Positions 1,822 to 16,060 of a DNA stretch of 64,000 bases are shown one piece after another. The stretch comes from Keratinibaculum paraultunense (lineage in GTDB: Bacteria > Bacillota > Clostridia > Tissierellales > Tepidimicrobiaceae). The notes beneath the pieces were generated by a model. The model did no database searches, was not told where the DNA came from, and saw only the letters and a program-made list of their open reading frames with translations. Each line of letters opens with the position of its first letter. Position 1 is the first letter of the stretch. Where the stretch lies: positions 1,426,001 to 1,490,000 of the forward strand of contig NZ_CP068564.1 in the NCBI RefSeq assembly GCF_016767175.1, read 5' to 3'. The position numbers and the translations under genes were made by a program.

Positions 1822-2889
1822 ATGAACACCTCTTTCAATGGAATATATAATTACTTTAACAGGATACTTCTCATCCTTTAAATATCTTTTTATCCTTTGC
1901 TCAGCTCCCCTTTCCATATCCTGTACTATATCTTTATAACCTGCATCAATGCATAAATTTAATCCTTCTTCTGCAGTTATACAGCTATTTATCCTTTTTA
2001 ATAGACTTTTAGGTGCTCCCTTTAATGCTAAATAATATATGAATGCTTCCATCCTAGCATCTGATACACTACTATGAGTATTGAATATACCTATGGATAG
2101 TTTTGAAAACTTTCCTATATGACCTATCAAAGTAATTGATTTAAATCCCTTATTATATATGTATGAAATACTATCTCCAATATAGTTTGAAATTTGTACT
2201 ATACTATGTTTAAAACCTAATGATTTAGCTATCTTTTCTCCATAGTTTCCAGGAACTAATATTATATTATCTTTGCCATATTGATCTTCTATTGCATCTA
2301 TTTCCATATATATAGTCTTAATTAATGCCTCTTGGGACATAGGATATACTATACCTTTAGTTCCTATGATAGATATTCCTCCTTCTATACCTATGTTTTT
2401 ATTATGGGTTTTTTTGCTAATTTCTTCCCCTTGAGGAGCATATATCACTACATCATATCCTTTTTGAGATACTTTCCTTATTTCCTTTTTTATCATTTCT
2501 TTAGGAACTGGGTTTATTGCAGCTTCTCCAATTTCACCAAATAAGCCTTTCCTTTTTATCCTCCCTATACCTATGCCCCCATCTATAGTTATTTTATTAT
2601 CATCTCGTCTACTTACCTTTGCATATATTTTTATGCCATCAGTTACATCTGGGTCATCTCCTCCATCCTTTGTTACAGAACAAGATGCACTATTTTTATT
2701 TATACATGGATCGTTTATTTCAAGTTTTAGTTTCATTCCAGCAGGAGTATCTATATTTACATAATCTACTATTTTCTGAATCTCCAACATTAAGGCTGCT
2801 GCCTTCGCAGCAGCTGCAGCACAAGAACCTGTGGTATATCCACATCTTAATTGTTTCCCATCTTTAATAACATACTTATCTAATTTCAT
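1813..2889 (-). CDS. cbiD: CbiD, cobalt-precorrin-5B C1-methyltransferase
   Basis: A 358-residue enzyme that methylates C1 after ring contraction in anaerobic B12 synthesis. The hallmark N-terminal motif CGYTTGSCAAAAAKAA is at about residues 16-31, and the Gly-rich DDPDVTDG and GEAAINPVPKEMI segments are present. Length matches the family. It overlaps cbiC by 4 bp. Its last codons read VHMG followed by TAG; that ATG-GGG-TAG string coincides with the point where cbiE should begin, so cbiD and cbiE are intimately overlapped and could even be joined by a frameshift. Confidence 0.93.
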   Translation of the reverse strand: MKLDKYVIKDGKQLRCGYTTGSCAAAAAKAAALMLEIQKIVDYVNIDTPAGMKLKLEINDPCINKNSASCSVTKDGGDDPDVTDGIKIYAKVSRRDDNKITIDGGIGIGRIKRKGLFGEIGEAAINPVPKEMIKKEIRKVSQKGYDVVIYAPQGEEISKKTHNKNIGIEGGISIIGTKGIVYPMSQEALIKTIYMEIDAIEDQYGKDNIILVPGNYGEKIAKSLGFKHSIVQISNYIGDSISYIYNKGFKSITLIGHIGKFSKLSIGIFNTHSSVSDARMEAFIYYLALKGAPKSLLKRINSCITAEEGLNLCIDAGYKDIVQDMERGAEQRIKRYLKDEKYPVKVIIYSIERGVHMG

Positions 2890-3506
2890 CTTTCCACCAC
2901 CATATACAATAAGGCATTTATAATAGATGCTGCCACATTACTTCCTCCTTTAGTACCTACAGTGGAAATAGAAGGAATATTAAATTCCCTTAAATATTCC
3001 TTAGATTCTTCTGCACCTACAAAACCTACTGGAACACCCACTATAAATCTAGGATTAACCTTTTCCTCTTCTACTAATTCTAGTAATCTAAATAAAGCGG
3101 TAGGTGCATTCCCTATTACAAACATATCTATTCCTTCTTTTACAGCTAAATCTATAGCTATGGATGAACGAGTGGTATCTAAATTTTTAGATAATGTATA
3201 TGCTCTTTCATCCTCTATGAAACATTTTAATTCACATTGAGTTTTAGATAGGGCTCTTTTGTTTATTCCCATATATGCCATTTTAGTATCAGTAAATATA
3301 ATACCTCCTTTTTTTATACTATCTATAGCCCTTTCAACAAAATTTTCTTTAAAAACTATAATATTTCTATATTCCAAATCTCCTGTTGTATGAATCATCC
3401 TTTTGACTATCATCTTCTCTTTATCAGTAAAGGAGGTATTGCCCATTGCCTTCTCTATAATGTCCATACTTTTATTTTCTATTTCCATTGGATTTTTAAT
3501 ATACAT
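2886..3506 (-). CDS. cbiC: CbiC, cobalt-precorrin-8 methylmutase
   Basis: A 206-residue precorrin-8X methylmutase (CbiC/CobH family) that moves a methyl group from C11 to C12 to give cobyrinic acid. Recognisable segments are the N-terminal I-x-x-P-M-E-I-E-x-x-S-M start, GNAPTALFRLLEL near residues 125-137, and VGVPVGFVGAEESKE near 155-170. The stop overlaps the cbiD start by 4 bp and the start lies inside the cbiA 3' end by 11 bp. Nothing unusual was seen. Confidence 0.93.
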   Translation of the reverse strand: MYIKNPMEIENKSMDIIEKAMGNTSFTDKEKMIVKRMIHTTGDLEYRNIIVFKENFVERAIDSIKKGGIIFTDTKMAYMGINKRALSKTQCELKCFIEDERAYTLSKNLDTTRSSIAIDLAVKEGIDMFVIGNAPTALFRLLELVEEEKVNPRFIVGVPVGFVGAEESKEYLREFNIPSISTVGTKGGSNVAASIINALLYMVVER

Positions 3507-4812
3507 AGATACCCTCCTTGCCCTTTTCTATTTTGTTTGATAGATAATTAAAAGCCTTCATATTTCCAAGGAAATGAATATGAGGGTATTGAGCTAATAC
3601 ATTTTTATATCTATATCCACATTTCCAATTTCTATTTCCCTTTGGCTTTTTAATATAATATAAAGGTTTGTCCTCTATATCTATAACAGAATAATGAAAC
3701 TCTTGTCCCTTTAAAATATCCCCTTTGTTGCCTAATAGGGTATCTTCCATTAAATTGATATCTACATATCCAAACCTTTGAAGCCTATCCTTCATATAGG
3801 CTTTTCCTTTAAATATTCCCACCATGGAACAATCTTCTATCTCTTCTACCAAATACATAAAGCCCCCTGCCTCTCCATAAATATAGCCTCCTCTTTCTGC
3901 CATATTTTTAATAGAATTTAACATAGTTAAATTTTGAGATAATTCTTCTTTATATAGTTCTGGGTATCCTCCACCAATGTATAATAAATCACATTCAGGA
4001 ACTTTAGTATCCCTAAGGGGAGAAAAATATTGTACCTGGCAGGTGTTTTCTAATAACTTTAAATTTTCACTATAGTAAAAGGAAAAAGCCTCATCATAAG
4101 CTATAGCTACTTTAATATTTCTTTTAATAGGATATTTGTAATTAGCTACATCCCCTTTACTCATCAAAGAAATTAATCCATCTATATCTACAGTTTTTTC
4201 TATAGTCCTTGATATTTTATCAATTACATCCTTTATGTATTTGTCATTTTGTACTAATCCTAAATATCTACTTTGTATATTTAAATTTTTATCATTTTCT
4301 ACATAACCTAATACCTGAATTCCAACATATTCTTCTATTTTTTCCTTCAATAAAAGATATATATCTTTCCTTACCTTATTCAATATTATCCCTTTTATAT
4401 TAGAATCCAAAAAATCTACCATACCTTTTATCTTAGGAATTGCAGAAAACATCTCCCCTTGAGGTGTATAAATCAGTATTGAGTTTATATTTAACTTTCT
4501 AGCTATATCATAGCTAGAATTTTCAAAATCATTATATATCCCATCAAAATATCCCATCGCTCCTTCTATTACCCCATATTCTCCTGGGTTCATGGATAAA
4601 GCATGTTTAAAATTTTCTCCCATCATATGAATATCCAAATTTCCTGCTAATTTTCCTGAAGCTAATCCTAAACATTTAGTGTCTATAAAATCTGGTCCTG
4701 TTTTAAAAGCAGATACATCTAATCCCCTATTTTTTAATGCCCTTATTATTCCCAATGTAATTATAGTTTTCCCTGTATTGCTAGAAGGAGCTGTTATCAT
4801 TATGGTTTTCAT
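3496..4812 (-). CDS. cbiA: CbiA, cobyrinic acid a,c-diamide synthase with inactivated glutaminase site
   Basis: A 438-residue protein with an N-terminal P-loop synthetase domain (APSSNTGKT at 8-16) and a C-terminal GATase-type domain. The enzyme amidates carboxylates a and c of cobyrinic acid with ATP. In family members the GATase nucleophile is Cys in a GECGGFMYL motif. Here the motif reads YGEAGGFMYL: Ala315, codon GCA at 3870-3868. The neighbouring EFH motif (His373) is kept, but its usual GHEFHYS reads GQEFHYS. The synthetase half looks intact, so the likely outcome is an enzyme that uses free ammonia in place of glutamine. Loss of the Cys is seen directly; the functional consequence is inferred. 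Confidence 0.9.
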   Translation of the reverse strand: MKTIMITAPSSNTGKTIITLGIIRALKNRGLDVSAFKTGPDFIDTKCLGLASGKLAGNLDIHMMGENFKHALSMNPGEYGVIEGAMGYFDGIYNDFENSSYDIARKLNINSILIYTPQGEMFSAIPKIKGMVDFLDSNIKGIILNKVRKDIYLLLKEKIEEYVGIQVLGYVENDKNLNIQSRYLGLVQNDKYIKDVIDKISRTIEKTVDIDGLISLMSKGDVANYKYPIKRNIKVAIAYDEAFSFYYSENLKLLENTCQVQYFSPLRDTKVPECDLLYIGGGYPELYKEELSQNLTMLNSIKNMAERGGYIYGEAGGFMYLVEEIEDCSMVGIFKGKAYMKDRLQRFGYVDINLMEDTLLGNKGDILKGQEFHYSVIDIEDKPLYYIKKPKGNRNWKCGYRYKNVLAQYPHIHFLGNMKAFNYLSNKIEKGKEGIYVY

Positions 4813-5860
4813 CTAATCTCTCCAATTCTTTAAAAGTTTCTATTAATTTTAAATTGTTCTTTCTGCTTTTTATGGCAACTCTAATATAGGTATTGTCCAA
4901 CCCGTTAAAACTAGAACATTTTCTAATTACTAATCCTCTATTTAAAAAGAATTTAAATACATATTCTTCATTCCATTTTAAAAGTTTTATAAGTACATAA
5001 TTGGCATGGGTATTATATGGTTTTATGCCTTTTATATTGGATAATTGTTCAAGGAGAAATTTTCTCTCTTCTTCTATATAAGTTTTACTCATTTCAATAT
5101 ACTCTTTACACTCAAATATATATCTGCCAGCTCTATCTCCTAGCGAATTGACACTCCAAGGTAGTGCTACTTTATCATGTACATTTCTTATATCTTCTGA
5201 TACACAACCATATCCTAATCGTATTCCAGGTAAAGCAAAAAACTTAGTTGCTGCTCTAATTATGCCTATTCTATGAAAAGACTTTTCTTTAAAGATCTGT
5301 ATACTGTCATAATCCTCTGGACAGAATTCATAAAAAGCTTCATCCAATAGTAGATATCCTCTTTTTTTGTTTACAATTTCATATAGTTTTTTTAAGGTAT
5401 CTTTTTCAATCCTTAGTCCTGTAGGATTATTAGGATTTCCTAAAATCAGCAAGTCGTCAGGTTTCATAGTATCTTCTATATTAGATAAATTTAATGTAAA
5501 ATCATCCTTGTATTTTAGTCTAATAACTTCTTTGCCATGAACTAATGCTCTTTCTTCATATTCAGAAAAGGAAGGTAAAACTACTATAATTCTAGGAAAC
5601 ATGATTATAAAATTATCTATTATATCCACTGCTCCATTGCCTACCACTACATTTTCAGGGCTGCATTTTAAATATTTAGATATACTTGTTTTAAGATGCC
5701 TATATTTTATATCTGGATAGTTGGTCATATCGGTAAAGCCTTTTATTAATTCTTCTTTAAGCCCTCCTGGAAATCCTAATGGATTTATATTACTGCTAAA
5801 ATCTATTAATTCTCCATCGTAATATTTTTCATAAGTAATTAAATCCCCTCCATGTTCCAT
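4781..5860 (-). CDS. cobD: CobD, L-threonine-O-3-phosphate decarboxylase
   Basis: A 359-residue fold-type I PLP enzyme of the histidinol-phosphate aminotransferase-like family. It decarboxylates threonine phosphate to (R)-1-aminopropan-2-ol phosphate, the linker for the B12 nucleotide loop. Visible features are the MEHGGDL start and FSSNINPLGFP (21-31), GNPNNPTG (141-148), LLLDEAFYEF (170-179) and the PLP lysine K206 in the motif TKFFALPGIRLGYG. The 3' end overlaps the start of cbiA by 32 bp, and cbiB, the enzyme that uses its product, lies 4 bp upstream. A histidinol-phosphate aminotransferase role is unlikely in this context. Confidence 0.9.
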   Translation of the reverse strand: MEHGGDLITYEKYYDGELIDFSSNINPLGFPGGLKEELIKGFTDMTNYPDIKYRHLKTSISKYLKCSPENVVVGNGAVDIIDNFIIMFPRIIVVLPSFSEYEERALVHGKEVIRLKYKDDFTLNLSNIEDTMKPDDLLILGNPNNPTGLRIEKDTLKKLYEIVNKKRGYLLLDEAFYEFCPEDYDSIQIFKEKSFHRIGIIRAATKFFALPGIRLGYGCVSEDIRNVHDKVALPWSVNSLGDRAGRYIFECKEYIEMSKTYIEEERKFLLEQLSNIKGIKPYNTHANYVLIKLLKWNEEYVFKFFLNRGLVIRKCSSFNGLDNTYIRVAIKSRKNNLKLIETFKELERLDENHNDNSSF

Positions 5861-5864
5861 CTTT

Positions 5865-6815
5865 TCACCTACCTAATAAATTATTAATTAATCCACATAG
5901 TATAAGTAATAATCCTTCTGTTCTATACATAATTTCAATAGTTTTTTTAATGTCTTCCCTATTAATGTTTCTAGTGTTATCACCTATAGTTGGTTTTTCC
6001 ACAATCTTTCCAAAATAATAGCTATTGCCTCCTAATTGAATATTTAATAGTCCTGCTATTGCACCTTCTGGATATATAGCATTGGGACTTTTATGGTTTT
6101 TCCTATCCCTTATCATAATCCTAAAGCCTTCCTTTACATCAAATCTAAATATAGAGGATATACACATTAAAACTCCAGTAAGTCTAGCTGGAATATAATT
6201 AAATACATCATCAATTCGTGCAGGAAAGAAACCTAAATCCATATATTTTTCATTTTTGTATCCTAACATGGAATCCATGGTATTCACCATTTTGTACATT
6301 AACCCTCCTGGGGCTCCCAATAACATAATATAGAATAATGGTGCTATGACTCCATCAGCAGTATTCTCTCCTACTGTTTCTACAGTTGCTTTTATTATCT
6401 CTTCTTCTGTAAGATTTTTAGTATCTCTTCCCACTATATAAGAAAGCCGATGTCTTGCTTCTTCTAAACTTATATCTAATCCATAAAATACCTTCATGGC
6501 CTCCTTATCTAAGCATCTAGCTGCTATACAGGTATATATAAGGTATGTATTTATGATGGGATATACTACTTTGTATTTTTTTATAGTTTTTAATAATATA
6601 TAAGGAAATATAAAAGCTAAAGCTATATTAAATATTGTTATTAAAAATCCCCAAAACTTTAAACCCAGTATGTTATTTGAATAATTTTTATCTATTTCCC
6701 TTACTAGTTTTTCTTCAAAAGCAATTAGTTTTCCCATAAGTTTTACAGGATGGGGAAAATTATAGGGATCTCCTAAAATTAAATCTAATATTACTGCTAT
6801 AAGTATACATTTCAT
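5865..6815 (-). CDS. cbiB: CbiB, adenosylcobinamide-phosphate synthase
   Basis: A 316-residue integral membrane protein that attaches aminopropanol phosphate to adenosylcobyric acid. The family start, LDLILGDPYNFPHPVKLMG, is clear at about residues 10-28. Further signatures are ETVGENTADGVIAPLFY, NTMDSMLGYKNEKY and the DRKNHKSPNAIYPEGA segment. Several hydrophobic helices are present (for example residues 54-78 and the C-terminus). It lies between cobQ and cobD, 4 bp before cobD. A 59-bp gap separates it from cobQ, the longest spacing within this part of the operon. Confidence 0.93.
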   Translation of the reverse strand: MKCILIAVILDLILGDPYNFPHPVKLMGKLIAFEEKLVREIDKNYSNNILGLKFWGFLITIFNIALAFIFPYILLKTIKKYKVVYPIINTYLIYTCIAARCLDKEAMKVFYGLDISLEEARHRLSYIVGRDTKNLTEEEIIKATVETVGENTADGVIAPLFYIMLLGAPGGLMYKMVNTMDSMLGYKNEKYMDLGFFPARIDDVFNYIPARLTGVLMCISSIFRFDVKEGFRIMIRDRKNHKSPNAIYPEGAIAGLLNIQLGGNSYYFGKIVEKPTIGDNTRNINREDIKKTIEIMYRTEGLLLILCGLINNLLGR

Positions 6816-6874: not shown

Positions 6875-7714
6875 CTATATATTTAATAAAGAATATACAT
6901 AATCCATATCCAAATTTTGTCTAATCAATTGGGATAGCTTTTTAAATTCTTCTTCAAGCTCTTCATCCCTTTGTGATGAGATATTACAACGCTTTTCATA
7001 GTCTATAAGGGAATCCTCATCTACAAGTTCCAATGGTGTATAGGGTATTGTTCCAATAACTGGTATATTTAAAAGCTCCTCTATCATTTTAATACCTGAA
7101 TTTAATAACCTTTTATCTCCCCTAAATTTATTTATTATCAATCCTTTAATTCTTTTTCTTTCTTCCTCTTCTAAAAGCATAACCGTGCCATAAAGGGATG
7201 CAAACACTCCTCCCCTATCTATATCCCCTACTAACAATACTGGAGCATCAACCATTTCTGCTATACCCATATTTACTATATCATTTTGCTTTAAGTTTAT
7301 TTCAGCAGGACTACCTGCTCCTTCTAATACTATAATATGGTGTTCCTTTTCTAATTCTTGATAAGCTTTTTCAATTGTAGGCTTTAATTTATTTTTATAT
7401 GAAAAATACTCTAAAGCCTCCATCCTCTTGTAAAACTTCCCATTTATTATTACATCACTTCCTTTATCAGAATTAGGTATTAATAATATGGGATTCATAT
7501 TGGGATTTGGCTCAATACCAGCTGCTTTAGCTTGTAGTGCTTGAGCTGTACTTATTCTATATCCCTCTATTGTTTCATAATATTTTGAGGACATATTTTG
7601 AGACTTAAAAGGGGCAACCTTATATCCATCTTCTTTGAATATCCTACACAATGCAGTAGCTATAAAGGATTTTCCTGCTGAGGATGTAGTCCCTTGTATC
7701 ATTATATTTGTCAT
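6875..7714 (-). CDS. cobQ: Short CobQ/CbiP, cobyric acid synthase lacking the glutamine amidotransferase domain
   Basis: CobQ amidates side chains b, d, e and g of adenosylcobyrinic a,c-diamide. The family is normally about 490-510 residues: an N-terminal P-loop synthetase domain plus a C-terminal GATase domain. This protein has only 279 residues. The P-loop GTTSSAGKS (8-16), FKSQNMS (37-43) and [13 protein letters not shown] (164-176) are intact. The synthetase domain ends at about 236, then after a short linker runs straight into [20 protein letters not shown] (258-277), which resembles the extreme C-terminal helix of full-length CobQ. The GATase domain therefore appears cleanly excised, not merely truncated. 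ATG start with a GGAGGG ribosome site. Inferred: an ammonia-dependent enzyme. Confidence 0.88.
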
Positions 7715-7741: not shown

Positions 7742-8515
7742 CTATATTATATTTTTTAAATGATCCATGTATATATCTTGTATTGCCTTTACCTCTCCCA
7801 AACCTTGTAATATTGGTTCTACAATAAATCCTTCCCTTTCCAATATACTTCTCCAAGAGTCCTCTTCTTTTGATGCCATATCATTGATAGCATGATCTCC
7901 TGCTACCAGCATAAAAGGCCTTAAAATAATTTTTTCTATTTCTCTATCCTTTAATATAGGAATTATATCCTCAAGGGCATTTTTACCTTCTACAGTAGCT
8001 ACAAATACATTTTCATATCCTTCTTCTTTAAAAGTCTTTTCCAATTTTTCATAGGATTTATCGACTTCATGATCTGTGCCATGTCCCATAAATATAATTG
8101 CTTCATCAGGCTTTAATGCCAAAAGTCCCAATCCCCTTACTACTTTTTTATAGTCTTTATCATCATATAGAAGTGGTTTTCCTATTTTAATAGAATAATC
8201 TTTGTTTTGATTTAAAAATATTTTCACTTGTTTTTGTATTTTTTCATATTCATGTCCTGGTATTATATGAAGAGGCTGTATGTATATATCTTTTACCCCA
8301 TTGAATTTCATCTCGTCCAATGCATCTTTAATATTATTTACAATGTAATTATCCCTTTTTTTAAGTTTTTCTATTATCATTTGAGAAGTAAAAGCCCTTA
8401 GCACAAGATAATCCTTGTATTTTTCTTTTATTCTATTTTCAATGGACTCAATGGATAGCTTCCTAGCTTTTTCATAGCTTGTACCAAAACTAGCTACTAT
8501 AATCCCTTTTTTCAT
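7742..8515 (-). CDS. cbiK: CbiK, sirohydrochlorin cobaltochelatase (anaerobic)
   Basis: A 257-residue class II chelatase that inserts cobalt into sirohydrochlorin, the committing step of anaerobic B12 synthesis. It begins KKGIIVASFGTSYEKARK and keeps the two metal-site histidines in MGHGTDH (His145) and LVAGDHAINDM (His208), which match the spacing of the Salmonella CbiK pair. PLHIIPGHEYEK (81-92) is also typical. No signal peptide, so cytoplasmic, unlike some periplasmic CbiK proteins. Its ATG lies inside the end of cbiO, so cobalt import and insertion are translationally linked. Confidence 0.92.
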   Translation of the reverse strand: MKKGIIVASFGTSYEKARKLSIESIENRIKEKYKDYLVLRAFTSQMIIEKLKKRDNYIVNNIKDALDEMKFNGVKDIYIQPLHIIPGHEYEKIQKQVKIFLNQNKDYSIKIGKPLLYDDKDYKKVVRGLGLLALKPDEAIIFMGHGTDHEVDKSYEKLEKTFKEEGYENVFVATVEGKNALEDIIPILKDREIEKIILRPFMLVAGDHAINDMASKEEDSWRSILEREGFIVEPILQGLGEVKAIQDIYMDHLKNII

Positions 8516-10007: not shown

Positions 10008-10284
10008 TATTTCGTCTCTCCTTCATCATGCCAAAAATATATCCAATAACTCCTGCACCAATAGCCACTTGCAATGAAAACAATAAGCTTTCTATCTCTC
10101 CACTAGGCGGCTCCCAAAGAGCATCAAACCAAGGTTCATAATCAGGATTTATCTCACCTATAACATCTTCTGCCTGATCGTCTGCTCCCTCAAATTCCGC
10201 ATCTTTTTTCATAACTAGGGGAACTATTATTAAAATAATAGCTAAAATTATCAACCATACATTAGTCTTATTTGATGTTTTCAA
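9991..10284 (-). CDS. cbiN: CbiN, cobalt ECF transporter accessory membrane protein
   Basis: A 97-residue protein with two membrane segments (about residues 8-26 and 66-86) flanking an acidic external loop that includes [21 protein letters not shown], the signature region of CbiN. The start is TTG, preceded by GGGGTGAT and located inside the 3' end of cbiM. In characterised CbiMNQO systems CbiN stimulates cobalt uptake by acting on CbiM. The overlaps on both sides imply coupled translation with cbiM and cbiQ. Confidence 0.9.
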
Positions 10285-10999
10285 TACGTATCACCCCTTC
10301 TTTGTGATATTCTATAAGCAGATTATATACAATTGCCGTTACTATTCCTTCTACTATAGCGAGAGGAATTTGAGTTACAGCAAATACAGATAAAAATTTA
10401 CCCATTGAACCAACAAATCCTGTTGTAGCATCAGGAAATGCTAAGGCTAATTGAATTGCTGTAATTACATAAGTCATCAAATCCCCTAAAAATGCTGCTA
10501 GAAAAACTGTAAAAGTTGTATTGGTATCTCTTTTCTTTAATAGTTTAAATATTCCATAAGACACTAAAGGTCCTACTATTGCCATGGAAAAAGTATTGGC
10601 TCCAAGGGTAGTTAATCCACCATGGGCTAATAGTAATGCTTGAAATAATAATACAATCAATCCCACCACAGTCATAGTTGTAGGTCCAAATAATATAGCA
10701 CCTAATCCAACTCCTGTTGGATGGGAACAGCTTCCTGTTACTGATGGTATTTTCATTGCAGACAATACAAATACAAATCCCCCTGCTAGTCCTAAAAGAA
10801 CTTTTTGATTTGTATCCCCTTTAAATATTTGACTTACTTTTTTAAAGCCTACTATTATAAAGGGTAAAGATACAACTGCCCAAATAATTGCCCATTTTAC
10901 TGGTAGAAACCCCTCCATTATGTGCATAGCCTGACCAATATTTGGAGTCAACAATAATATTAATAGAATCGATAAAAAAATTACTTTTTTGTTTTTCAC
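10268..10999 (-). CDS. cbiM: CbiM, cobalt ECF transporter substrate-binding membrane component
   Basis: The substrate-specific membrane subunit. I place the start at GTG 10999, preceded by AGAGGTGAG at 4-base spacing. This gives an N-terminal signal-like helix ending NIGQA, followed by MHIMEGFLP; the mature N-terminal Met-His is the cobalt ligand region of CbiM. An upstream ATG at 11077 is in frame, but it would add 26 residues not seen in the family and would start inside the leader just after the terminator. [15 protein letters not shown] is the second conserved metal-site segment. First gene of the riboswitch-controlled operon. Confidence 0.9.
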
Positions 11000-11059
11000 A
11001 AAACTCACCTCTCTTTTTTTATTTAAAGGTAATACTACCTCATTTGCTAGTGCTACAGA

Positions 11060-11097
11060 CAAAATAAAGACCCTCACCTTCTAAAGGTAGGGTCTTT
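11060..11097 (-). terminator. Intrinsic terminator in the cobalamin riboswitch leader
   Basis: On the minus strand AAAGACCCT (11097-11089) pairs with AGGGTCTTT (11074-11066). The stem is extended inward by ACCTT/AAGGT around a short loop with one bulged base, and is followed by ATTTT. It lies between the aptamer and cbiM, the expected expression platform for transcription attenuation when cobalamin is bound. Confidence 0.8.
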
Positions 11098-12486: not shown

Positions 12487-13848
12487 TTATTCGATCCCTA
12501 GACTAAGCTTTAGCAACTCTAAAGCTTCATCAGGATACTTTTTACTCATTACTCCTAAAGAAGCCATTATATAATAATTATCTATTAATATATTTACTTC
12601 TTTATTTGGTAACAATTCATGTGCTTTTTTATTCAAAGGAATTTGTTTTAAAATTTCAACTCTATTTGGCAGTCGAGTTAAAGGACCACCTGTACCAATT
12701 ATAGTTTTTACCATAGTCAAATCCTTACCTTCAGCTACAGTTTTCTTACCACTAGGCCCATATAAGTACCTTAGTCGTCCTGCATGCCTTTTAGTTGCTG
12801 CTACGGCTCCATGTAAAGCTAATTCTTCCACAAATGCTATCTCCAATTCTCCTTCTGGAATTGGTTTATAGTTTTCTATTAATCTCTCTAATTTTCCCAA
12901 TGATATGTTCAATTTTTTAGCTAATTCTTCTTTCCCTACCATATCTACTATATTATGCATATTAACATATACACCTAAATCTCCTTCTACTGTTCTCTTT
13001 GCTAAAGGTTCTGGATTTATCAATATTCTACTTATCTCATCACTTCCAGGAGTAACAGAATGAACATCAGTAGTTGCTCCTCCTACATCAATGGTCATCA
13101 AGTCTCCCATATGCTCATACAATAATTTTGAAGCTTCCATAACTGCTCCCGGGGTTGGCATTATTGGACCGGTTATCATCTCTTTAACTTTTCCCATTCC
13201 TGGACCATGAATTATATGTTCTTCAAACACTTTTTGAATAACTTTTCTAGTAGGTTCTATATTTAATTCATCAATTTTAGGATATACATTTTCTACAATA
13301 TATAATTCAGCTTTTTTGCCACGAAATATATCCTCTACTTCCTGCTGATTTTCCACATTCCCTGCATATATTATTGGTATGTCTAAATTAAGATCAGCTA
13401 TAAGCTCAGCATTATATAATGCTGTATCTCTCTCTCCATAATCTACTCCACCAGCAATCAAAATTATATTTGGATTTATTTCTTTAATCTTTCTTAAATC
13501 AGATTTTCTCAATTTACCTGAAGTTATATATTTAACATTAGCTCCTGCTCCTAATGCAGCTTCTTTAGCAGCTTTAACTGTCATATCATACACAAGACCA
13601 TGGACTGTCATCCTTAGTCCTCCAGCAGCACTACTAGTGGCTATAATTTCATTACATTCTATTCTGTTAGTTCCTAAATTATCAACTAGATCAGAAATAG
13701 CAGATTTAAGTCCTATATTCACATCTCCATCTTCTACAGAAGTAGGGGCTTGACCTTGCCCTAAAAAAGTAGGGCAAGGATATAGATTAAAAGCATTTAC
13801 TACCGTAGTAGTACTACCTATTTCTGCAACTAATATATCAATCTTCAT
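12487..13848 (-). CDS. Or-4, GlmL/MutL-family ATPase accompanying ornithine aminomutase
   Basis: A 453-residue protein of the ASKHA ATPase superfamily. It begins with the phosphate-1 motif VAEIGSTTTVVNAF and has MTIDVGGATTDVHSV as phosphate-2. Homologues sit beside B12-dependent carbon-skeleton and amino mutases (glutamate mutase GlmL, and or-4 in the ornithine cluster of Clostridium sticklandii). A role in protecting or reactivating the B12 mutase has been suggested but is, to my knowledge, unproved. It overlaps oraE by 11 bp, consistent with a dedicated partner. It is not the DNA-mismatch-repair MutL. Confidence 0.85.
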   Translation of the reverse strand: MKIDILVAEIGSTTTVVNAFNLYPCPTFLGQGQAPTSVEDGDVNIGLKSAISDLVDNLGTNRIECNEIIATSSAAGGLRMTVHGLVYDMTVKAAKEAALGAGANVKYITSGKLRKSDLRKIKEINPNIILIAGGVDYGERDTALYNAELIADLNLDIPIIYAGNVENQQEVEDIFRGKKAELYIVENVYPKIDELNIEPTRKVIQKVFEEHIIHGPGMGKVKEMITGPIMPTPGAVMEASKLLYEHMGDLMTIDVGGATTDVHSVTPGSDEISRILINPEPLAKRTVEGDLGVYVNMHNIVDMVGKEELAKKLNISLGKLERLIENYKPIPEGELEIAFVEELALHGAVAATKRHAGRLRYLYGPSGKKTVAEGKDLTMVKTIIGTGGPLTRLPNRVEILKQIPLNKKAHELLPNKEVNILIDNYYIMASLGVMSKKYPDEALELLKLSLGIE

Positions 13849-16060
13849 CTTTTGCCTTCATCTCTCTTCTCTTTTTAACTAAAAATGTTGCTACCTGATC
13901 CCCATTAGAGCCTCTGCCAAAGCCTGCATCCATACCATGTTTTACAGCTAATTCGTTAGATACTTGAGTGCCACCTGATACAAGGATGATATCATCCCTT
14001 ATTCCTTTTTCTATACATAGTTCATGCAATTTTTTCATATTCTTATAATGAATATCGTCATGACTTATTATAGTTGAGGCTAAAATTGCATCTGCATCTA
14101 TCTCAATAGCTGCATCTACTAATTTTTCTACAGGAACGGAGGTTCCTAGATAATGACATTCAATTCCATATTTTTCAATTCCACCATGCTTTATATCGAT
14201 AATTTCTCTTAATCCAACAGAGTGTTCATCTTCTCCTACTGTAGCAGCTACTACTTTCATAGGATTTTTCTTTATTTCTTCTCTTATTTCATCTTCCGTC
14301 AATATTTCTGGTTCAGGTGGAATAACTAATTCATCTAAATCTATAGTAAAGTCAACTCTACCCTTTAACTCAATTCTTGTTCCTTCTGCTAATTGCATTA
14401 TCTCCTTATGAATTACCTCTACATCTTCTAATCCCAATTTTTTACCTATTTCTAAAGCAGCAAACTCTGCTACCCTTGCTTCTACTGGTAAAAACATTGT
14501 TATTAATATTATGCCATCTCCTAACCATTCCATCTCTGGCTTTATTTTAGAAGATTTTCTTAATTCTTCAGTTTCCTCTAATCTTACATATACATTATCA
14601 TTTTCATCTAATTCATCTATAAATATTATTTTATCAGGATCTTCAAAGGTACAACCACCTATCAATTTAGAAGGATTGTCTACAGCTGATTCATCATATT
14701 GAGCTATATTATTATATCCAAAGTGAGCAGTAACTGGAGCCATATAATCTTCTTCTCTTTCATATACAGTACCTACTCCAACTCCTCCATTTATTTTCCT
14801 TGCAATCCCATCTTCATTTCTTTCAGGATAATAGCCTGAATCTACGAAGAAACCTTGTTCTACAGCATTAAAATATCCTCCCACTTCTAGAATTTCTTCT
14901 AAAAACAATACTGCTCTTTCTTTTAATTCTCTTACTTTGTCTGCTAATTCTCCTTCATCCCTTTTTATTTCTACCATTCGTGTTAATCCATCCATACCAT
15001 TAAATGCTTGTTTTGCTGTATCTACTGCTTCTATATTGTAAATGTGCCAAGGTACATTTCTACCTTCATCTGGAGTAATAGTAGATTGAATTTCAGCTCT
15101 TGTTAATTGAGATATTAATAAGTTTAAAGTATGAGTAACAGTAGCTTCCCTTGTAGATGATTCCATGTATTTGGTGTTCATCTGTGCCCTCATTTTATAT
15201 TCCTTAAATAGTTCTCTTAAAGCTACTGCGTAAGGTAAATCTAATCTCATACAAGGTGCTGGTGGTGCTGTTGGTGGTACTGTAGATAAGCATATGTTCT
15301 CCTTTTTCATTCCTGCTTTTACTGAAAACATTGAATTAATAGCATGTTGTACCATTAACTCTGGCATTACTTTCCACGCTTCCCTAGCTGTTGCATTGGC
15401 ATTATGAGCTCCATCAATTTGAACCATATCAGCCCAAGCCATTATTTTCTTTGCACAAGCAGCATCTACAAAAGATCGAACCATATTTATATTTCTATAC
15501 AATACATTATATTGAGGATCTTGATGTGCTCCATTGACTCCTTCCTCAGCAAACATAACTGCAATTTCAGGTCCTGCTACTCCACTAACATAGGAGTGAT
15601 AATTAATTGGTCTACCCACTTCATCTTCTATTATGTCTAATGCTTTTCTTTGAGCTCTTACTTGCTTTCTAGTTATAGGAATCCCGCCAATTCCTTGAGG
15701 AGTTCCTTCTATTAATCCATCATAATGACTTTGTCCAGCAGTTCTAATAACCATTATATGATCTGCACCATGCCAAGCAGCCATTCTCATACGTCTAATA
15801 TCATCTTCAAACCTACCTGATGCAATTTCTGTAGTAATAACGGATTTTGGTTGAGGATCTATATTATCAAAATATTTTGCTGCTGGCAAAGGTTGACTAT
15901 TTTTTAAGGGTTCTGATGTATCATAATATTCAAATTTTCCTATTTTTCTTTTTTCCCCTACACCTTTTCGCCAAGTCCAACCTCTTCTTCTAGGTCTATA
16001 TTTATCTAAATCTTTTAGTATATATTCTATATCTAATTTTTCATTAGGCTTTAGTTCCAT
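13838..16060 (-). CDS. oraE: D-ornithine 4,5-aminomutase large subunit (OraE)
   Basis: The 740-residue catalytic subunit that moves the 5-amino group of D-ornithine to C4, giving 2,4-diaminopentanoate, with adenosylcobalamin and PLP. The N-terminal TIM-barrel part is followed by a B12-binding Rossmann domain. The base-off cobalamin motif DEHSVG has D611, H613 and G616, and the PLP-binding lysine is K624 in IDIKHGG; the His-Lys spacing of 11 matches the characterised enzyme. It starts one base after the oraS stop. Known for large domain motion between resting and active states. Confidence 0.95.
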   Translation of the reverse strand: MELKPNEKLDIEYILKDLDKYRPRRRGWTWRKGVGEKRKIGKFEYYDTSEPLKNSQPLPAAKYFDNIDPQPKSVITTEIASGRFEDDIRRMRMAAWHGADHIMVIRTAGQSHYDGLIEGTPQGIGGIPITRKQVRAQRKALDIIEDEVGRPINYHSYVSGVAGPEIAVMFAEEGVNGAHQDPQYNVLYRNINMVRSFVDAACAKKIMAWADMVQIDGAHNANATAREAWKVMPELMVQHAINSMFSVKAGMKKENICLSTVPPTAPPAPCMRLDLPYAVALRELFKEYKMRAQMNTKYMESSTREATVTHTLNLLISQLTRAEIQSTITPDEGRNVPWHIYNIEAVDTAKQAFNGMDGLTRMVEIKRDEGELADKVRELKERAVLFLEEILEVGGYFNAVEQGFFVDSGYYPERNEDGIARKINGGVGVGTVYEREEDYMAPVTAHFGYNNIAQYDESAVDNPSKLIGGCTFEDPDKIIFIDELDENDNVYVRLEETEELRKSSKIKPEMEWLGDGIILITMFLPVEARVAEFAALEIGKKLGLEDVEVIHKEIMQLAEGTRIELKGRVDFTIDLDELVIPPEPEILTEDEIREEIKKNPMKVVAATVGEDEHSVGLREIIDIKHGGIEKYGIECHYLGTSVPVEKLVDAAIEIDADAILASTIISHDDIHYKNMKKLHELCIEKGIRDDIILVSGGTQVSNELAVKHGMDAGFGRGSNGDQVATFLVKKRREMKAKDED

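Follow-up and report, generated by a model that had tools for sequence, protein, structure and literature searches.

Putative ammonia-fed CbiA and CbiP in Keratinibaculum paraultunense, an organism in whose genome no glutamine synthetase gene is detected

The window, the whole stretch of 64,000 nucleotides of K. paraultunense DNA that was analysed, contains a B12 biosynthetic operon in which all genes described here lie on the minus strand. It comprises cbiL (29–691; TIGR01467, 167 bits), cbiT (688–1236; TIGR02469, 97 bits), cbiD (1813–2889; TIGR00312, 379 bits), cbiC (2886–3506; PF02570, 245 bits), cbiA (3496–4812), a cobD-type aminotransferase gene whose product resembles L-threonine-O-3-phosphate decarboxylase (4781–5860; TIGR01140, 253 bits, below the cut-off of 290.55), cbiB (5865–6815; TIGR00380, 255 bits), cbiP (6875–7714), and cbiK, which encodes a sirohydrochlorin cobaltochelatase (7742–8515; NF047852, 248 bits, below the cut-off). 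Cobalt transport is represented by the transporter component gene cbiM (10268–11077; TIGR00123, 294 bits). This complete operon adjoins a gene for a B12 consumer, oraE (13838–16060; NF040743, 1447 bits), which encodes a subunit of the B12-dependent D-ornithine 4,5-aminomutase.

The product of cbiA is a 438-residue homologue of cobyrinic acid a,c-diamide synthase that lacks the glutaminase nucleophile. It matches TIGR00379, and over the whole protein it scores 380.5 bits with the NCBIfam family for this enzyme, NF002204 (cut-off 254). Pfam recovers the two-domain layout of CbiA/CobB: a P-loop synthetase domain (PF01656; residues 4–178, positions 4279–4803) and a GATase_3 domain (PF07685, 116.8 bits; residues 234–416, positions 3565–4113). 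CobB and CobQ keep just the cysteine and the histidine of the catalytic triad, and mutating either of these residues in GatD kills its glutaminase activity (PMC5871853). In the K. paraultunense enzyme, whose translation contains GGYIYGEAGGFMYL, the position of this cysteine in the motif GEAGGFMYL is taken by Ala315 (codon GCA, 3870–3868), as an earlier note on this DNA had claimed. Also in agreement with that note, the catalytic histidine of the dyad is retained as His373 in QEFHYS (codon 3694–3696), and the first histidine of the usual GHEFHYS is replaced by Gln370 (codon 3703–3705). Searches of the PDB with phmmer and profiles returned no useful relative of CbiA, and the nucleophile position was therefore checked by alignment and against the secondary structure that AlphaFold predicts (mean pLDDT 89). 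In the predicted structure, residue 315 lies between a strand (residues 310–314) and a helix (residues 316–321), at the site where class I GATases have their nucleophile elbow.

A sequencing error at Ala315 is ruled out, since the same residue is found in a second genome of the genus (G206, contig L054) and at the equivalent position of [Clostridium] ultunense (L035) and Clostridium sp. Cult1. Fixation of the alanine, which the earlier note had raised, is not borne out by the alignment: Ala, Gly, Ser, or Cys occupies the position in related Tissierellales. A different cysteine at the structural nucleophile position was looked for, and none is present. A conserved cysteine elsewhere in the protein is likewise ruled out as a substitute nucleophile, because, of the positions that hold the remaining cysteines (47, 258, 274, 328, and 398), 47 and 328 lack Cys in all 67 Cys-type enzymes, and Cys at 258, 274, and 398 is scattered through both the Cys-type and the Cys-less groups. 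Glu371 and His373 are kept in CbiA, and His373 is conserved in 49 of 51 Cys-less and 67 of 67 Cys-bearing enzymes. Since position 370 is His in 65 of the 67 Cys-bearing enzymes versus 19 of the 51 Cys-less ones, Gln370 is read from the alignment as part of the same erosion as the loss of the cysteine. Compared with contig L054, the whole of CbiA has a dN/dS of ∼0.07, which is similar in both domains (dN 0.0044 and dS 0.068 in the GATase_3 domain), and the ratio of GATase to synthetase divergence among relatives has a median of 1.06 in Cys-less versus 1.02 in Cys-bearing enzymes. The gene is thus judged to be intact and under purifying selection, not decaying.

The protein encoded by cbiP is a 279-residue homologue of cobyric acid synthase from which the GATase_3 domain is excised in frame. 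Its synthetase domain scores above the family cut-off (NF001989, 366.9 bits, matching residues 3–237 only), and no GATase_3 domain was found in it by Pfam, NCBIfam, or alignment, which upholds the description of CbiP in the earlier note as a second B12 amidation enzyme of the operon without a glutaminase. Alignment with full-length CbiP (475–491 residues) reveals a gap, corresponding to the GATase domain, that runs from about residue 249 to the last 30 residues. The C-terminal helix pair, which lies after the GATase domain in the full-length protein, is kept (residues 250–279, positions 6878–6967), is confidently modelled by structure prediction, and matches a helix pair at about residues 190–218 of CbiA; in BLASTP, residues 139–218 of CbiA align with residues 189–278 of CbiP. 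The GATase domain of CbiP therefore appears to be inserted into the synthetase domain before the final helices, such that excision of the insert leaves the synthetase domain complete. The matching helix pair of CbiA precedes the CbiA GATase domain. This comparison suggests that the point of the synthetase fold to which the GATase domain is attached differs between CbiA and CbiP. The solved folds closest to the CbiP model include stand-alone dethiobiotin synthetases. The reading frame of cbiP is intact, and the gene is taken, from its sequence, to be under purifying selection. A second GATase_3 gene was sought in the closed genome with PF07685: CbiA alone exceeds the cut-off, a match at 2119645 (L003) scores below it, and neither a GatD-like partner for CbiP nor a separate GATase_3 subunit of the GatD/MurT type was found.

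The genome is a single closed contig of 2,307,997 bases (2.31 Mb). It was searched family by family, with PF07685, PF00117, PF13507, PF13522, and PF00120. Three proteins only match PF00117: the CTP synthase PyrG, the GMP synthetase GuaA, and a class I GATase-DUF1284 protein. PyrG keeps its cysteine in an intact GICLGMQ motif. In GuaA, which is encoded outside the window (L063, G000:C1:445313–445852 and downstream), AIGYG replaces GICYG, such that the catalytic cysteine is Gly. PurL and PurF (L278 and L279, G000:C1 ∼459474–462300, outside the window) have both lost the nucleophile cysteine. In PurL (PF13507), GIGSG replaces GICNG, and the histidine region is altered too, with ANSDR in place of GHSER. 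PurF, the sole PF13522 match in the genome, has Ser in place of Cys1, with a TTG start codon directly before it, (TTG)-Ser-Gly-Val-Ile-Gly. A typical GlmS scores well with PF13522 (73 bits for the N terminus of Escherichia coli GlmS, with an approximate query sequence). A GlmS with the usual glutaminase domain thus goes undetected in the genome. Glutamine synthetase (PF00120) is absent from the genome, and the same search is positive in 14 of 14 control genomes. The judgement of the earlier note that chance decay is unlikely gains weight from these results, as two enzymes are hit within the operon, PurF, PurL, and GuaA are affected as well, and purifying selection is seen. Among relatives, G217, used as a control, has the normal cysteine in both PurF and PurL, G202 has lost both nucleophiles, and G210 has lost that of PurL only. 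The purF and purL genes lie downstream of guaA in just 3 of 20 relatives. The class I GATase-DUF1284 protein is a fusion of 354 residues (L002, G000:C1:220005–220202 region, outside the window) with Cys and His intact in GICYGHQ and HPE.

A survey of the order, covering 249 genomes, divides the CbiP reading frames into two size classes, ∼280–325 and ∼465–545 residues. Nearly all full-length CbiP are accompanied by a Cys-bearing CbiA, the exceptions being genus g29 of family f12 and genome G095, and short CbiP is mostly accompanied by a CbiA with Ala, Gly, or Ser. The association with glutamine synthetase was restricted to genomes that are at least 85% complete. Among those without the enzyme, the CbiA cysteine is lost in 33 of 37 and CbiP is short and GATase-less in 36 of 37; where glutamine synthetase is present, full CbiP and the CbiA cysteine are both usually retained, the cysteine in 42 of 52 genomes. 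At the level of genera, the association has p ∼ 1e-7 for the CbiA cysteine and for CbiP alike, uncorrected for descent. On the CbiA tree, at least 12 changes of state are counted for the nucleophile, 5 for CbiP, and 5 for glutamine synthetase. For the last of these, the tree offers 3–5 independent contrasts, each of them neutral or as expected and none opposite, a number too small for significance. Short forms fall into at least four separate clades of a tree of the CbiP synthetase domain, by which the excision is judged to have arisen in at least four clades. Two genomes, G153 and G154, look short in this tree from partial sequence only; their CbiP is full length.

The association is imperfect. 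In genus g29 of f12 (G025, G027, and G029–G032), CbiA has Gly alongside a full CbiP and a GlnN-like gene, and CbiA can, to judge from these sequences, lose its glutaminase first. In family f13, short CbiP occurs together with glutamine synthetase, in G202 and G205 the glutaminases are lost although glutamine synthetase is present, and f16 combines an already shortened CbiP with a CbiA that retains Cys. Some individual cases, such as those of G168, G006, and G009, may be distorted by incompleteness and contamination of metagenome-assembled genomes. GuaA was compared over 30 genomes, including that of the window: the cysteine is kept in 10 and substituted in 10, the domain is vestigial in 3 and gone in 7. 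One of the 30 genomes searched, G195, has no GuaA match. The GATase domain of GuaA is wholly missing in Tissierella, G156, G218, and G110, and a remnant is seen in G189, G190, and G242. In relatives with a short guaA, no GATase gene adjoins it, and guaB lies upstream.

Wild-type CbiA and CbiP, as known from the Salmonella enzymes, accept ammonia. We hold it to be quite likely that CbiA and CbiP of K. paraultunense are fed by ammonia within a genome-wide switch that is tied to the missing glutamine synthetase. The two enzymes would be amidases driven by ATP, with free ammonia in place of glutamine as the nitrogen donor for cobyrinic acid a,c-diamide and cobyric acid. The GATase-fold domain of CbiA, with its dead nucleophile, would be kept as a structural part or as an ammonia entry path, and that of CbiP would have been cut out. 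With no glutamine synthetase, glutamine would be scarce or only imported, and the organism probably ferments amino acids in ammonia-rich surroundings. A cell that is without glutamine synthesis and bathed in ammonia would gain nothing from glutaminase sites, and these sites would consequently be lost: under relaxed selection, PurF, PurL, GuaA, CbiA, and CbiP would have been deprived of them by point mutation or excision, with the synthetase halves remaining under selection. Thus, B12 and purine amidation probably take nitrogen directly from ammonia in this organism. Some glutamine is probably present in the cell, since PyrG and the GATase-DUF1284 protein keep their cysteines. The sequences contribute to this reading the lost residues and domains, the intact frames, the purifying selection seen in both B12 enzymes, and the lack of glutamine synthetase and of any other GATase_3 gene; from these, we infer ammonia as the donor in the cell, the niche, and a causal link to the loss of glutamine synthetase.

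Ammonia can serve directly as substrate for the synthetase halves of such enzymes. The C89A variant of PfGMPS has no glutamine-dependent activity and still makes GMP from ammonium (PMC9312489), and in E. coli PurF, replacement of Cys1 by Ala or Ser leaves only the use of ammonia (PMC3261824). [Clostridium] ultunense, which comes from high-ammonia biogas reactors, has been published as lacking glutamine synthetase (PMC5924567). The same lack is published for Tepidanaerobacter acetatoxydans and Syntrophaceticus schinkii, and it has been read as a saving of ATP at high ammonia (PMC5924567, PMC4374699, PMC5113046). The same [Clostridium] ultunense is one of the Ala-bearing species of the present CbiA comparison, and CbiA of Tepidanaerobacter sp. 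GT38 (L046) has Gly. With less assurance, but still on the side of probability, free-living anaerobes that include much of Tissierellales and several Peptoniphilaceae-like genera would have abandoned glutamine as the amide donor, by convergent and repeated loss of nucleophiles or domains after the loss of glutamine synthetase.

The order of cause and effect could differ. Relaxed selection in ammonia-rich niches of amino acid fermentation could remove glutaminases and glutamine synthetase in parallel, the loss of the latter being a result of the niche and not the cause. The loss of glutaminases in G156, G202, and G205 despite glutamine synthetase fits such an account, as does the short CbiP of f16 beside an unaltered CbiA. 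The close match between the absence of glutamine synthetase and the losses in CbiP and CbiA speaks against it, and the species that have the enzyme could have lost their glutaminases earlier and then regained the gene; we regard the parallel account as unlikely, although it is the most serious competitor. Considerably less probable is that glutamine is still the donor, with a separate glutaminase, be it the GATase-DUF1284 protein, an asparaginase, or some other amidase, feeding ammonia in trans to CbiA, CbiP, and GuaA. Two-subunit amidotransferases are known in GatD/MurT (PMC6085368, PMC5871853), and the GATase-DUF1284 protein retains its catalytic motifs. Nevertheless, the closed genome has no second GATase_3 gene, no GATase adjoins the short guaA of relatives, the cell lacks glutamine synthetase, and a single shared subunit would need to serve unlike folds. 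That CbiA is decaying or non-functional, with the alanine arising from neutral drift, is barely credible: a key residue of one activity is gone, as decay would have it, but the frame is intact, dN/dS is low in both domains, the other core residues are kept, the complete operon stands beside a B12-dependent enzyme, and the same pattern recurs in dozens of genomes.

In standard teaching, amide nitrogen comes almost universally from glutamine, because glutamine synthetase keeps free intracellular ammonia low. Cys-less or single-domain amidotransferases that use ammonia are already known one by one, as NadE, archaeal PurF′, and laboratory mutants. Similar to the CbiA/CobB cobyrinic (hydrogenobyrinic) acid a,c-diamide synthases, CbiA of K. 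paraultunense combines a P-loop synthetase with GATase_3, has an equivalog HMM score, and lies in the expected operon; it differs in the replacement of the nucleophile Cys by Ala and of His370 by Gln. CbiP shares with CbiP/CobQ cobyric acid synthases the N-terminal synthetase domain above the cut-off and the conserved C-terminal helix pair, and it differs in the excision of a GATase domain of ∼200 residues. Single-domain NadE, which the present enzymes would resemble, is an amidating synthetase that works on free ammonia, as it has no attached glutaminase (PMC3376133); the NadE form is held to be ancestral, whereas glutaminases here were lost secondarily and in several enzymes. In that source, a 2012 survey of amidotransferase arrangements, glutamine synthetase is counted as the first enzyme to use ammonia and single-domain NadE as only the second, and GMP synthetase is 100% glutaminase-fused in 730 genomes (PMC3376133). 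In cysteine mutants of GMP synthetase and PurF, glutamine can no longer be used but ammonia can (PMC9312489, PMC3261824); these mutants are laboratory-made, whereas the losses here are natural, fixed in lineages, and common to several pathways. Archaeal PurF′ is a natural Cys-less homologue for which ammonia use is suggested; in contrast to the present case, it is a single enzyme, its ammonia use is putative, and the passage that describes it mentions no link to the loss of glutamine synthetase (PMC3261824). A linked loss in CbiA, CbiP, GuaA, PurL, and PurF was not found described in the full texts searched, among which most subscription journals are missing, and this negative is weak evidence.

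In entire lineages, B12 and purine synthesis appear to be fed by ammonia. Such lineages offer five enzymes in natural, putatively ammonia-only form, a test of roles of the GATase domain besides glutamine hydrolysis, a candidate genomic marker for high-ammonia life in digesters and amino acid fermenters, and simpler enzymes for B12 production without a supply of glutamine. Annotators should be wary, as these genes are probably misassigned when they are given the EC numbers of glutamine-hydrolysing enzymes.

Short CbiP is also found in other orders, in at least 11 genomes. Five of these have CbiA, with Gly in G566, G351, and G537 and Cys in G606 and G517. In G232 (L228), G018 (L230), G245, G234, G444, and G594, short CbiP occurs without a CbiA match and with cbiB and a cobD-type aminotransferase gene alongside; such genomes possibly salvage a partly amidated corrinoid. 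L230 also has cobU and cobS, and ABC transporter genes lie upstream in L228.
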